IMG/VR virus record: IMGVR_UViG_3300030060_002588
Span: 1-53,233 of that record
Source: a virus
Reading direction: 5' to 3' (one strand)
DNA length: 53,233 bases
Shown here: positions 23,495 through 26,684 of the stretch, piece by piece
Position numbering within the stretch: position 1 is the first letter of the stretch
Layout of the letters: every line of letters starts with the position of its first letter
The notes under the pieces: model-generated
What the model was told of the DNA's origin: nothing
The model's database searches: none
What the model saw: only the letters and a program-made list of their open reading frames with translations
Program-made: the position numbers and the translations under genes

Positions 23495-23703
23495 TATGCT
23501 TCTCCAACAATATACAACTCATCAAGCATCTTTAATGTATCTAAGTCAAAGTAGTCATCTAAAAATTCAAAATTAGAATCTATAGGTCCTACTGGATTTA
23601 CAGTAGCTATGCCTTCAGCAATATGTTCTACTGTACCTTCTTCGACATTATAAATTATCTCAAGAGTGTAAATAAGATTTCCCTTTTTGTTTTTCTTTGA
23701 CAT
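23494..23703 (-). CDS. First gene of the late operon, hypothetical (69 aa)
   Basis: An acidic protein with a Lys-rich start (MSKKNKKGNLIYTLEIIYNV). The ATG has no ribosome site upstream and lies just behind a possible -10 sequence, so its mRNA may be leaderless. The divergent spacer with a perfect inverted repeat begins right behind it. No family is recognised. Confidence 0.6.
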   Translation of the reverse strand: MSKKNKKGNLIYTLEIIYNVEEGTVEHIAEGIATVNPVGPIDSNFEFLDDYFDLDTLKMLDELYIVGEA

Positions 23704-24177
23704 GCATAAATATAAAACAATGTGAGCAAATTTCCCAAAAAAATTTGTGAACCACTACCAAATTAGACGTAGGTTCCCCCTGATATAAGCAAAAATTTAA
23801 TTTTAAATTTCATTAAAGCCAGTACTCCGAGGACCCATACTTTAACTTATATTAAAACAATTTGCGGAACTATTGGGGACAAACTCTTTATCCTATTTGG
23901 AGAGCAACCCAACTTCTGAACCTCACAGCAGAACCATTGCAGGGGTACTGGAAGGCTGATAAATCTAAGTAACTGATTTGTTCCTGAACTATAAATTACT
24001 GTAGCTTAATTCTAAAAACAAATAAAAAAGGTTAACTTTCAAAAATTGTAGGATTTTAGTGGAGACCCCAATTTATAGGGTAGGCCCCCTGACAATTCCT
24101 TTTCCTATTTATGGTTTTGGTTATTTTTCAATCGAAAATAGGTTTCAATCAATTAGTTATATGAAAGGATATACGTT
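23704..24177. promoter_or_regulatory. Divergent control region with many inverted repeats (474 bp)
   Basis: No credible gene is seen. It separates the minus-strand late block from the plus-strand early block. Visible stems include AAATTTAA-TT-TTAAATTT (about 23793), TTAAAG/CTTTAA (about 23814-23846), TTGGG/CCCAA around CTCT/AGAG (about 23873-23911), TTCTG/CAGAA, AAATC/GATTT, and CCTATTT/AAATAGG at 24104-24142. A weak sigma70-like pair for the minus strand (TTGGGA, 18 bases, TATATT) lies just before 23703. It probably holds promoters for both directions and possibly an origin. Confidence 0.55.
23727..23747. promoter_or_regulatory. Perfect 7-bp inverted repeat, operator candidate
   Basis: CAAATTT and AAATTTG are separated by seven bases (CCCAAAA). 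The repeat overlaps the candidate -35 region of the late promoter, a usual place for a repressor or activator site. The 75-aa HTH protein at 27796 is a possible binder, by inference only. Confidence 0.45.
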
Positions 24178-24531
24178 ATGATTATCAAAATGTATTTACA
24201 GAAAATATATGTACAGTCTCAACAAAAAGAACTATGGCAATATTCAAGCAAAGAAAGAAAAGCAGTTGCCATCTTTGGACAAGCAATGCAAGGCGTGAGC
24301 ATTAGCAAATATACTCCAGGTGTTACACAGAGTGCTAGCCCTGATATATATTCTTGCTTTGTACCACAATATACTGATGAGATAGCACAAGAAGTCATAG
24401 ACGCAAATGGTAGCAATGTGTTCTACTATGCAACAGATGACGCAGGCAACGAGGCTATCATCACAGAAGAAGAAGGCTTAGCAAAGATGAAAGAATCAAT
24501 GCAAGCAAGTACTGCACAGCCTTCAGTATAG
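24178..24531 (+). CDS. First plus-strand gene, hypothetical (117 aa)
   Basis: A soluble protein with no recognised motif: a Lys/Gln-rich start (MYLQKIYVQSQQKELWQYSS), a middle with alternating polar residues, and an acidic end. An AAAGGA site precedes the ATG at 24178. It is the first gene after the control region, so it is probably among the earliest expressed and might act on the host. That is inference from position. Confidence 0.65.
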   Translation: MIIKMYLQKIYVQSQQKELWQYSSKERKAVAIFGQAMQGVSISKYTPGVTQSASPDIYSCFVPQYTDEIAQEVIDANGSNVFYYATDDAGNEAIITEEEGLAKMKESMQASTAQPSV

Positions 24532-24545
24532 TATCAAAAGAACTT

Positions 24546-24753
24546 GAGAGTATTGGGAATGATTTTGGAACGCAATGCGTAGATAGTGCACATGTCTATG
24601 TCCTTGATGAACCATTGTAGCCATTAGTACATACGCAAAGGAAAGCCTATGTAGTCATTCTATACCAAACAATACTCTCTTGAAAGACATTGGATAGCCT
24701 TTGGCTATGTTTGTTGATGTGTACGTAGTCATATCTCTTGATGTATGTACACA
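24546..24753 (+). ncRNA. Structured non-coding element: nested stems, then two hairpins
   Basis: No gene fits here. GAGAGTATTG (24546-24555) pairs perfectly with CAATACTCTC (24670-24679). Inside it GAATGA (24557) pairs with TCATTC (24655), inside that TGCGTA (24576) with TACGCA (24632), and at the centre ATAG (24583) with CTAT (24596). Two further hairpins follow: ATAGCC-TTT-GGCTAT at 24694-24708 and TGTGTAC/GTACACA at 24718-24753. All pairs are in nested order, as in a folded RNA. Orientation is assumed from flanking genes. Function unknown. Confidence 0.5.
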
Positions 24754-24800
24754 ATAAAACAGAATTATATAAATAAACGTCACATAAACTAGGAGTCATT

Positions 24801-24935
24801 ATGAACTATCGTAACAACAAGGCATTACAAGCCTATAAATCGTACTTATTACACACTTTATTAGCCTTTGTATGTATAACTGTAACTCTAGGTCTTATCA
24901 GCCTATTCTTACGTATTATGAGGTGGATGTACTAA
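24801..24935 (+). CDS. Small membrane protein (44 aa)
   Basis: A good GGAGTCATT ribosome site precedes ATG. A polar, basic N-terminus is followed by one hydrophobic helix (TLLAFVCITVTLGLISLFL) and the end RIMRWMY. It may be an early host-membrane-acting protein. No family is recognised. Confidence 0.6.
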   Translation: MNYRNNKALQAYKSYLLHTLLAFVCITVTLGLISLFLRIMRWMY

Positions 24936-24961
24936 CAAGATATAAATAGGGAGGCGTTCCT

Positions 24962-25090
24962 ATGAACGAAAAAGAGATAGACACACAAGTAAAAGCGTTG
25001 CTTGACTTAACTGACAATAGTTATGCAGCAGCAATGTTTATTGTTTGTCTTGACATTCAAGTAAAAGAGTCTAACAATTATTGCGGATGA
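24962..25090 (+). CDS. Small hypothetical protein (42 aa)
   Basis: A GGGAGG ribosome site is followed by ATG and a short frame beginning MNEKEIDTQVKALLDLTDNS and ending in an Asn/Tyr/Cys tail. It is mostly helical in appearance. Function unknown. Confidence 0.5.
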   Translation: MNEKEIDTQVKALLDLTDNSYAAAMFIVCLDIQVKESNNYCG

Positions 25091-25104
25091 TGACTCTGTC
25101 CATT

Positions 25105-25136
25105 GGGGAGACTATCTAGGAGTGGGTAGTCTCCTC
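25105..25136 (+). promoter_or_regulatory. Leader stem-loop before the 84-aa gene
   Basis: GGGGAGACTA and TAGTCTCCTC form a 10-bp stem (one G-T) around a 12-base loop. It ends 10 bases before the AAAGGAG ribosome site of the gene at 25157. There is no T-run, so it is not a terminator. Confidence 0.6.
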
Positions 25137-25156
25137 GCAATACAAAGGAGATAAAC

Positions 25157-25411
25157 ATGGCAAAAAGAAAACAATTATATTTAGTTCACTATAACAATAT
25201 AACAGGTGAAAGTGTACAAGAAGATAACCTTTGTCCTGAGTGTGATGGTGATGGTGTCTTTGTAGGTGATTACGAAGACGGTGGTAAAGATTTAGATATA
25301 AGTCCTTGTGAGTTCTGTAACATGACAGGTGTTTCTGTACCAAACAAAGACTATAAAGTAGAAGCTTGTGATACAGAAGATGGACCATTATATAGAGTAG
25401 TAAAGATATAG
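25157..25411 (+). CDS. DnaJ-type zinc-finger-like protein (84 aa)
   Basis: Two Cys pairs, CPECDGDG at residues about 26-33 and CEFCNMTG at about 51-58, are each followed by the G-x-G or x-x-G ending seen in DnaJ zinc-finger halves (C-x-x-C-x-G-x-G). Together they could hold one zinc ion. The rest is short and acidic. A strong AAAGGAG ribosome site follows a stem-loop. It may be a chaperone-like or RNA-contacting early protein; function unknown. Confidence 0.65.
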   Translation: MAKRKQLYLVHYNNITGESVQEDNLCPECDGDGVFVGDYEDGGKDLDISPCEFCNMTGVSVPNKDYKVEACDTEDGPLYRVVKI

Positions 25412-26107
25412 AGTTGTCTGGCATACACAGGTAGAGTTTAAAGGCATCTCGAGAGCCCTCTCAAAGTATGCCAATAATTTAAAGAATTGAGTGTGATTAG
25501 CGTCATACGAAATAGTTGCCAGGTGGACAAATTACTCACGTTAGTTAAACATTGACATTCCTAGGGTGTCATAGAGTACTTCTCAAGCAAATGCCACAAC
25601 TCCTGAAACAGGATGAACTTACTATATCAAACTTATTTATAAGCGAGAACACTGGTAAGCAGTCTCTAAGCGTAGATATACGCAATCCACGGTAGATTCC
25701 TTCTTAAGACTGACTGTGGACTAGAATTATATAATTACAAGTATGTAACTAGTTTAGTAGCAGTCCTGAGAAGTTACACTAAGTTTATTCCAGGAACTCA
25801 CAATCTAGATGAAACTGTCAGCTAGTGAGCACTACTATTAAACGAAAAAAAAGCTTGTATAAATTTACAGGTTATTGCTGTAATAAGCCATGGGTCCTGT
25901 AATAAACACGCCAACGGTGAGCAGTTGGAGATACGGTTAGCATTGGTTATAAAATATGTAGCTAAGGATAAACAGTATCAATCACTTAAATAGATGTCGG
26001 AGTCTATTTATAATTATAGAGAGTCAATAACTGGTCCTGTAAGTCCTGAAACATTGGAATGAAGGCAAAGGAATATGTGAGGCTCTCTATAAATTAAGGA
26101 GAACAAT
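25412..26107 (+). ncRNA. Unexplained non-coding region packed with stem-loops (about 700 bp)
   Basis: No gene longer than a few codons fits on either strand. Perfect stems succeed each other: TGGCATAC/GTATGCCA (25419-25473), TCCTG-AAA-CAGGA (25601-25613), GCGTA-GATA-TACGC (25670-25683), TTACAG/CTGTAA (25865-25883), CCAAC/GTTGG (25911-25928), GATAC/GTATC with TTAGC/GCTAA inside (25930-25979), TAAATAGA/TCTATTTA (25987-26010) and a 12-bp stem at 26014-26092. The motif TCCTG recurs at 25601, 25763, 25894, 26034 and 26044. Base composition looks less AT-rich than the genes around it. It could be one or more structured RNAs, an origin, or a set of hairpin promoters. Confidence 0.5.
26014..26092 (+). 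promoter_or_regulatory. Leader stem-loop before the zinc-ribbon gene
   Basis: TTATAGAGAGTC pairs with GGCTCTCTATAA (12 bp, one G-T) around a loop of about 55 bases. It ends just before the AAGGAG ribosome site of the gene at 26108. Confidence 0.6.
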
Positions 26108-26212
26108 ATGGAATGGACATGTATTGAATGTGAATTTCCTTATAGAGATAATGTACAAGGAGACGCTGAAGAACGTATGTGTTATAAATGTTTAAACAAG
26201 GAGAAATTATGA
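26108..26212 (+). CDS. Zinc-ribbon microprotein (34 aa)
   Basis: The sequence MEWTCIECEFPYRDN ends in RMCYKCLNKEKL, giving two C-x-x-C knuckles 17 residues apart, the minimum for a zinc ribbon. AAGGAG ribosome site. It is coupled to the next gene by an ATGA overlap. Such microproteins may bind nucleic acid or host proteins; function unknown. Confidence 0.65.
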   Translation: MEWTCIECEFPYRDNVQGDAEERMCYKCLNKEKL

Positions 26213-26496
26213 GCAATAAAAAAAGAGACTTTATACCAATTGATAAAGACCCTATTCAAATGGTTACTCAAAAATATCGCAGAAATTTGCTTTCTTATAA
26301 TATGATATTTCATTCAGATAAGTGGGAAGAAGTTCCAACAGAAGATTTATGGGAAGATGGTGAAATATCTAATACTACTTGTATGGTTAAAATTTATGAT
26401 AATGTAGTAGTAGAAGGTAAATGGAAATTAATAAGACAAGTGGAAAAAGATATAGATTATTCTACTAACAGTTCTATAAAAAAGGAGAAAAAATGA
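26209..26496 (+). CDS. Hypothetical protein (95 aa)
   Basis: I start it at the ATG at 26209 (MSNKKRDFIPIDKDPIQ), which overlaps the previous stop as ATGA and follows AAGGAG; an upstream start at 26188 would run 25 bases into the previous gene. The protein has a Trp/Glu-rich centre and a Lys-rich end. No known motif. Confidence 0.65.
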   Translation: MSNKKRDFIPIDKDPIQMVTQKYRRNLLSYNMIFHSDKWEEVPTEDLWEDGEISNTTCMVKIYDNVVVEGKWKLIRQVEKDIDYSTNSSIKKEKK

Positions 26497-26684
26497 TAAA
26501 TGATATGGAAAATATAGAAGATGTAGTGTTGTTATTTGACCAAGTATTTGGCAAAGATGACATAGTTGGTGAAAAAGATTTCTTTGAATTTATGAAAAGA
26601 GCTAATAGAGATTTAACAGCTAAACAAAGATATATAATATTAAGAATAACTATAAACGCATTGAGAGGAGCTAATGATGAGTGA
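26493..26684 (+). CDS. Hypothetical small helical protein (63 aa)
   Basis: Overlaps the previous gene by 4 bases (ATGA) with an AAGGAG site. Residues LLFDQVFGKDDIVGEKDFFE and RDLTAKQRYIILRITINAL look like two or three short helices. No family recognised. Confidence 0.6.
   Translation: MINDMENIEDVVLLFDQVFGKDDIVGEKDFFEFMKRANRDLTAKQRYIILRITINALRGANDE

Follow-up and report, generated by a model that had tools for sequence, protein, structure and literature searches.

The 53,233-nt virus record IMGVR_UViG_3300030060_002588, analysed over its whole length and called the window here, comes from a marine, uncultured, podovirus-like phage and encodes a P22-like portal protein, a DnaB-type helicase-primase and an SPL-like protein. 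Its late genes are directed leftwards from 23703, its early genes rightwards from 24178, and among the early genes lies a stretch, positions 25412-26107, that an earlier note on this DNA had described as about 700 gene-free bases of consecutive hairpins, in stems from 25865 to 26092. The lack of a gene was borne out, with no open reading frame (ORF) of 60 amino acids (aa) or more and a longest start-to-stop frame of 47 aa, within the unit that we call RNA A. The consecutive stems are also present, but the structured part is larger than was described, beginning at 25412 and not at 25865, with further spacers, structured or conserved, at 23766-24132, 24532-24800 and 25090-25140. Comparison with the loci of relatives drawn from IMG/VR split the stretch into a tandem row of hairpin-closed units. 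Within the early operon it constitutes an island where six or more distinct structured RNAs (Z, A, B, S6, a small hairpin and C) lie. The units of the row are as follows:

25412..25474, + strand, unit Z, a hairpin closed by GGCATAC (25420-25426) and GTATGCC (25466-25472)
25485..25733, + strand, RNA A, about 250 nt, with 14 homologues
25736..25859, + strand, RNA B, about 125-160 nt, with 20 homologues
25865..25902, + strand, unit S6, a TTACAGG/CCTGTAA hairpin with inner GGTTATT..AATAAGCC; scaffold also in L145, L147, L153, L175 and L202
25911..25928, + strand, small hairpin CCAAC-GGTGAGCA-GTTGG, with an identical 24-nt copy in L212
25930..25979, + strand, hairpin GATAC..GTATC with inner TTAGC..GCTAA, from the sequence and stem list only; homologue not found among the relatives
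25987..26010, + strand, hairpin TAAATAGA..TCTATTTA, likewise from the sequence and stem list only; homologue not found among the relatives
26014..26092, + strand, unit C, with outer stem TTATAGAGAG/CTCTCTATAA, core AATAACTGGTCCT..AAGTCC..GGCAAAGGAATATGTGAG, insert 2 TGAAACATTGGAATGAA and insert 1 absent; 108 distinct homologues

The decisive evidence for structure is covariation in the relatives, a check that the earlier note had itself proposed. As the comparison shows, A, B and C form conserved structures on the + strand, those of A and B with pseudoknots. For RNA A, an alignment of 14 sequences (alignment A1) contained two-sided compensatory change at 20 of the 27 pairs that make up six helices:

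25491-25496/25503-25508, + strand, helix with a conserved UUAGCG loop
25515-25517/25607-25609, + strand, helix
25559-25562/25610-25613, + strand, invariant helix
25620-25622/25655-25657, + strand, helix
25661-25665/25707-25711, + strand, pseudoknot helix
25687-25692/25714-25719, + strand, helix

Two-sided cells numbered 67 as against 15.5 in shuffles (reached in 0/500), 98.7% of the alignment cells were paired, and the covariation score was 0.58 compared with 0.04-0.09 in slid controls, which keep the relatedness of the sequences where the shuffles leave phylogeny unmodelled. The pseudoknot is paired as AGUCU/AGACU in most homologues and as GGAAU/AUUCC in L259. A group I intron was considered for A and rejected, as the AGUCU/AGACU helix stands in reversed order relative to P7 and Rfam gave no match.

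RNA B, whose core pattern is present in 47 viral stretches, is built from the following parts:

25736-25741/25854-25859, + strand, P1, an A-rich strand preceding its 3' side
25745-25750/25772-25777, + strand, P2, which crosses P3 and P4
25752-25760/25835-25843, + strand, P4
25765-25768/25791-25794, + strand, P3
25797-25829, + strand, variable arm

Here two-sided compensatory change was found at 13 of 29 pairs (alignment A2, 20 sequences), with 63 two-sided cells compared with 16.5 in shuffles, 95.9% of cells paired and a covariation score of 0.35 against 0.03-0.06 in slid controls; when all column pairs were searched de novo, most of these helices came out at the top. The two-sided change in A and B thus exceeds both kinds of control. 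The outer stem of C, compared with a shuffled control only, alternates between A-T and T-A and yet is 99% paired at base pair 8, versus 51% after shuffling (101 elements). Among the smaller units, homologues of Z (L166, 86%, and L237, 85%, over 62-63 nt; L157 and L261, 92% over 48 nt) sit elsewhere in their genomes and differ compensatorily at inner stem pairs, and the copy of the small hairpin in L242 has its outer pair changed from C-G to A-U.

The strand of these structures could also be read from the data. In the + strand stems G-U pairs outnumber A-C by 72 to 3 overall (19:1 in A, 17:0 in B and 36:2 in C), the locally dominant coding strand holds 252 of 260 distinct related units, and in each of the 33 pairs of neighbouring units both face the same way. 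The G-U excess and the sense placement therefore indicate RNA read with the early genes, and together with the two-sided covariation and the pseudoknots they support the structured-RNA option of the earlier note.

Stem counts and folding energies are less telling. Counting perfect stems with loops up to 60 nt and taking dinucleotide shuffles as the null, we found 14 stems of at least 5 bp in 25865-26092 where 9.3 were expected, a number reached by 9% of shuffles, but four stems of at least 7 bp against 0.57 expected (0/500 shuffles) and a longest stem of 10 bp (0.2% of shuffles). The number of stems by itself is therefore only mildly above chance and it is their lengths that stand out. Over the whole 696 nt the folding z-score was -3.2, and those of the units were mixed (A -0.3, B -2.7, Z -3.6, C -2.0); coding segments taken as controls reached -2.5 and -3.0 in two cases out of three, and for that reason folding energy alone was not accepted as proof. 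That the region is no simple repeat array, as had been said, agrees with its direct repeats, just three in number, weak and two-copy.

Other phages carry homologous units with changed order and number. The order A-B-S6-C of the window is A-C-S5-S4-B in L202, A-B-C in L145 and A-C in L153; genes lie between A and B in L076, Z is far from A in L157, and the neighbouring genes and unit content differ from phage to phage. C itself stands mostly between a stop codon and the next ribosome-binding site (RBS), with an ATG within 60 nt in 70 of 96 cases, and precedes at least eight unrelated gene families, including a helicase-primase, an AAA ATPase, an SPL-like protein, a primase-like protein and several small genes.

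C was found in at least 119 viral stretches, its elements measuring about 85-200 nt, and has a fixed scaffold, GAGAGCC-AAYAACUGGUCCU-[insert 1]-AAGUCC-<insert 2>-GGCAAAGGAAUAUGUGAGG-CUCUC. Its core consists of about 35 nearly invariant nt around variable stems, an invariance that is inflated in the set from L162 onward, which was selected by an exact core 19-mer, and that is still visible in protein-drawn loci: of 13 records found by their TerL or helicase matches, 9 hold C, one of them (G002) with two mismatches in the 3' core. A multicopy repeat was rejected, as 21 of 22 positive records hold a single copy, and so was an integron attC site, the outer stem being on inspection without the R''/R' pattern. 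The exact C 17-mer gave 39 matches in cellular genomes, about the chance level, of which one is a true C; this element (PCBP01000024.1, L303) lies on a contig with phage replication genes that was binned with a Flavobacteriales metagenome-assembled genome, a weak hint of a Flavobacteriales host.

The two peripheral hairpins of C are interchangeable cassettes, with the same inserts occurring amid unrelated flanks, at either site and in other scaffolds. When two C elements have insert 2 at least 85% alike, their flanks are in most cases unrelated on one side or both, and one and the same insert 1 is combined with several distinct insert 2s. The C of L212 shares a 52-nt insert, letter for letter and with exact hairpin boundaries, with a plain stem of L255; GCCTCAnGGGCAAGTCCCnTGGACGA, whose stem base covaries, appears in inserts of C, in other spacers and in the variable arm that RNA A has in L076. 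Further scaffolds with conserved halves and free inserts (S2, S3, S4 and S5) were recognised, S4 in 45 viral stretches.

We tentatively favour, at little short of an even chance, a co-transcribed array of independent and probably trans-acting structured RNAs, comparable to the tRNA and GOLLD islands of phages. The units would be transcribed within the early polycistronic RNA and would each fold by itself, like the tRNAs and GOLLD beside them in relatives; host RNases may then free them at the short AT-rich linkers, and the freed units could work in trans, as RNAs, upon components of the host or the phage. Trans action after release is suggested by the tandem arrangement, the tRNA and GOLLD neighbours and the lack of gene specificity. 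Rows of several different units with no intervening gene are more in keeping with separate RNAs than with a single leader for each gene, and the variety of gene families after C argues against a gene-specific switch. Two observations weigh on the other side: many C elements end 20-40 nt before a start codon (median 33 nt, for an ATG within 150 nt), which fits a 5' leader too, and neither a promoter nor a terminator of its own is conspicuous inside the array. Through the exchange of cassettes the peripheral domains would be fitted to a partner that changes, with the cores keeping the fold. It is possible, if on the whole doubtful, that scaffolds C and S2-S5 and dozens of insert hairpins form a shared toolkit recombined at exact helix boundaries, each phage having its own combination of composite RNAs in a combinatorial system, plausibly under the pressure of an arms race against defence or RNA-binding factors of the host.

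The main rival, a serious contender that we consider unlikely, takes each unit as a portable cis-acting element, a 5' leader or spacer setting mRNA processing, stability, ribosome access or processive antitermination for the early genes downstream, as the put RNA of HK022 acts in cis in processive antitermination. The sense orientation and the usual filling of the stop-to-RBS gap by C speak for this, although a compact genome alone would yield a short distance to the next ATG, and AAAGGA and TCCT strings seen in the core on inspection could compete with the RBS. The 84-aa ORF upstream of the array shows weak similarity to a Q-like antitermination family (E = 2.9e-5), but this may reflect CxxC motifs alone, a DnaJ zinc-finger model being weakly matched as well. 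Less easily reconciled with leaders are the unrelated genes that follow one same C core and the gene-free runs of different units. New classes of self-cleaving ribozymes, at least one scaffold cutting the early transcript and the peripheral hairpins merely stabilising the fold, seem improbable to us. Such ribozymes would account for the near-invariant core around variable stems, the intergenic sense placement, the pseudoknots and the several different classes side by side, but Rfam found no known self-cleaving family (hammerhead, twister, pistol, hatchet and others) in the window or in the L146 array, and inserts that are conserved in sequence and exchanged are unexpected of mere peripheral stabilisers.

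The exact boundaries of the exchanged inserts, as in the 52-nt copy, and their unrelated flanks would also be produced by selfish hairpins jumping between intergenic spacers, like mitochondrial double-hairpin elements, and functionless for the phage. We hold this to be quite improbable, because the compensatory changes and near-invariant cores speak for selection on the units; moreover, C is nearly always single-copy, neighbouring units are never antisense to one another, and no mobilising enzyme was found among the window proteins searched. Most improbable of all is an element acting as DNA, a replication origin or a run of hairpin promoters as the earlier note had also offered, for which hairpins in a stretch devoid of genes, close to where the gene direction switches, might be cited. 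The turning point of the GC skew is at about 24.0 kb, at the divergence of the genes, and not at 25412-26107; there are no iterons, the structures covary as RNA with a strand-specific G-U excess and pseudoknots, and the units lie at many places between early genes. Promoter-like sites are no commoner than in shuffles, and the cores and pseudoknots exceed what hairpin promoters would need. An N4-type virion RNA polymerase was not matched, the 3210-aa protein matching Dda-like/AAA helicase families only; this absence is not absolute, as the 1297-, 1517- and 759-aa proteins of the window had no match in protein searches. Of the options first offered, then, the structured RNA is supported and origin and promoters are disfavoured, and the exchange of modules between phages had not been foreseen.

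Database searches did not assign the units to a known family. No Rfam 15 family passed gathering thresholds in the window, and in the L146 array just a tRNA did so; permissive thresholds over the window and relatives gave no family for A, B or C. GOLLD (RF02032, at least 150 bits) had no match at gathering in the window and none up to E = 10 in 23700-26200, ARAGORN found no tRNA or tmRNA in the window, and blastn of 25000-26500 against GenBank phages gave no match. Searches of the open literature returned just general work on structured RNAs, GOLLD/ROOL/OLE and marine cis-regulatory motifs, an absence that is no proof that the motifs are undescribed, and no described counterpart of a combinatorial RNA system was found there.

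Several known systems nevertheless resemble the array in part. GOLLD and ROOL are likewise large, highly structured phage or prophage RNAs near tRNAs, whose function is not known, and GOLLD combines a conserved with a variable part (PMC12286853); A, B and C differ in having no Rfam model, in being shorter (85-280 nt), in forming tandem rows of several different units and in exchanging sub-domains between scaffolds. Two close relatives carry GOLLD itself in the same early region (L146:3788-4208, 192.7 bits; L202:6608-6999, 171 bits). Phage tRNA arrays share the tandem sense order, short linkers and variable content, and a tRNA-Met lies 4 nt 5' of A in L146, but the units are not tRNAs. A match resembling tmRNA (L217:7688-7768), close to a tRNA on a phage contig, is possibly a fragment of a phage tmRNA. 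The marine and cyanophage cis-regulatory motifs manA, wcaG and PhotoRC-II are also structured marine phage RNAs that were recognised through comparative genomics, and they were proposed to work from 5' leaders (PMC2864571); they are tied to certain genes, whereas C precedes many unrelated ones and has no Rfam match. Phage hammerhead, pistol and twister ribozymes resemble C in invariant core, variable stems and intergenic position; the units lack an Rfam match and have inserts that are conserved and exchanged. Mitochondrial double-hairpin and repetitive hairpin elements are likewise hairpins that move as exact units; the elements described here are not multicopy, are sense-only, are pseudoknotted with compensatory change, and lie in a phage.

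As for the phage itself, its TerL shares 25-28% identity with the best GenBank phage matches, and IMG/VR relatives with TerL 70-90% identical are common. Around the array, the early region contains these further features:

23766..24132, + strand, conserved leader 5' of the first early gene (24178), outside the array, with homologues in most clade loci
24532..24800, + strand, second non-coding spacer, following the first early gene, with a long-range 10-bp stem GAGAGTATTG (24546-24555)/CAATACTCTC (24670-24679); z = -2.2
26098..26212, + strand, RBS (AAGGAG) and small gene, a 34-aa zinc-ribbon-like ORF (26108-26212) directly 3' of C

The leader looks like a promoter or a structured leader, with a promoter-like TTTCAAAAATTGTAGGATTTTAGTGG in its 3' part; many relatives have its conserved blocks CGGGGAC..GCAACCC and the 3' string TTTCAAAAATTGTAGSATTTTAGTGG on the 5' side of their first early gene. 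The second spacer occupies a place comparable to that of GOLLD in some relatives (e.g. L146), and its structured part had no homologue among the relatives compared. A further structured or conserved spacer lies at 25090-25140, and the ORF of the 84-aa CxxC protein (25157-25411) is directly 5' of the array. The hairpin motif GGAGGGGAAGCTC is conserved and recurs in other spacers of relatives (L086:3141, L012:2773 and others; reverse-complement strand).

The finding extends the known structured RNA islands of phages, and the combinatorial exchange would be new in kind if confirmed. Several new classes of structured RNA occur here together, widespread in ocean phages and not in the catalogues searched, and their modules give testable material on the purpose of large phage RNAs such as GOLLD. 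In the swapping of sub-domains among unrelated scaffolds nature offers an example of RNA evolving by modules whose borders coincide exactly with helix ends. Should the modules be aptamer-like, they would constitute a natural library of RNA binding motifs.
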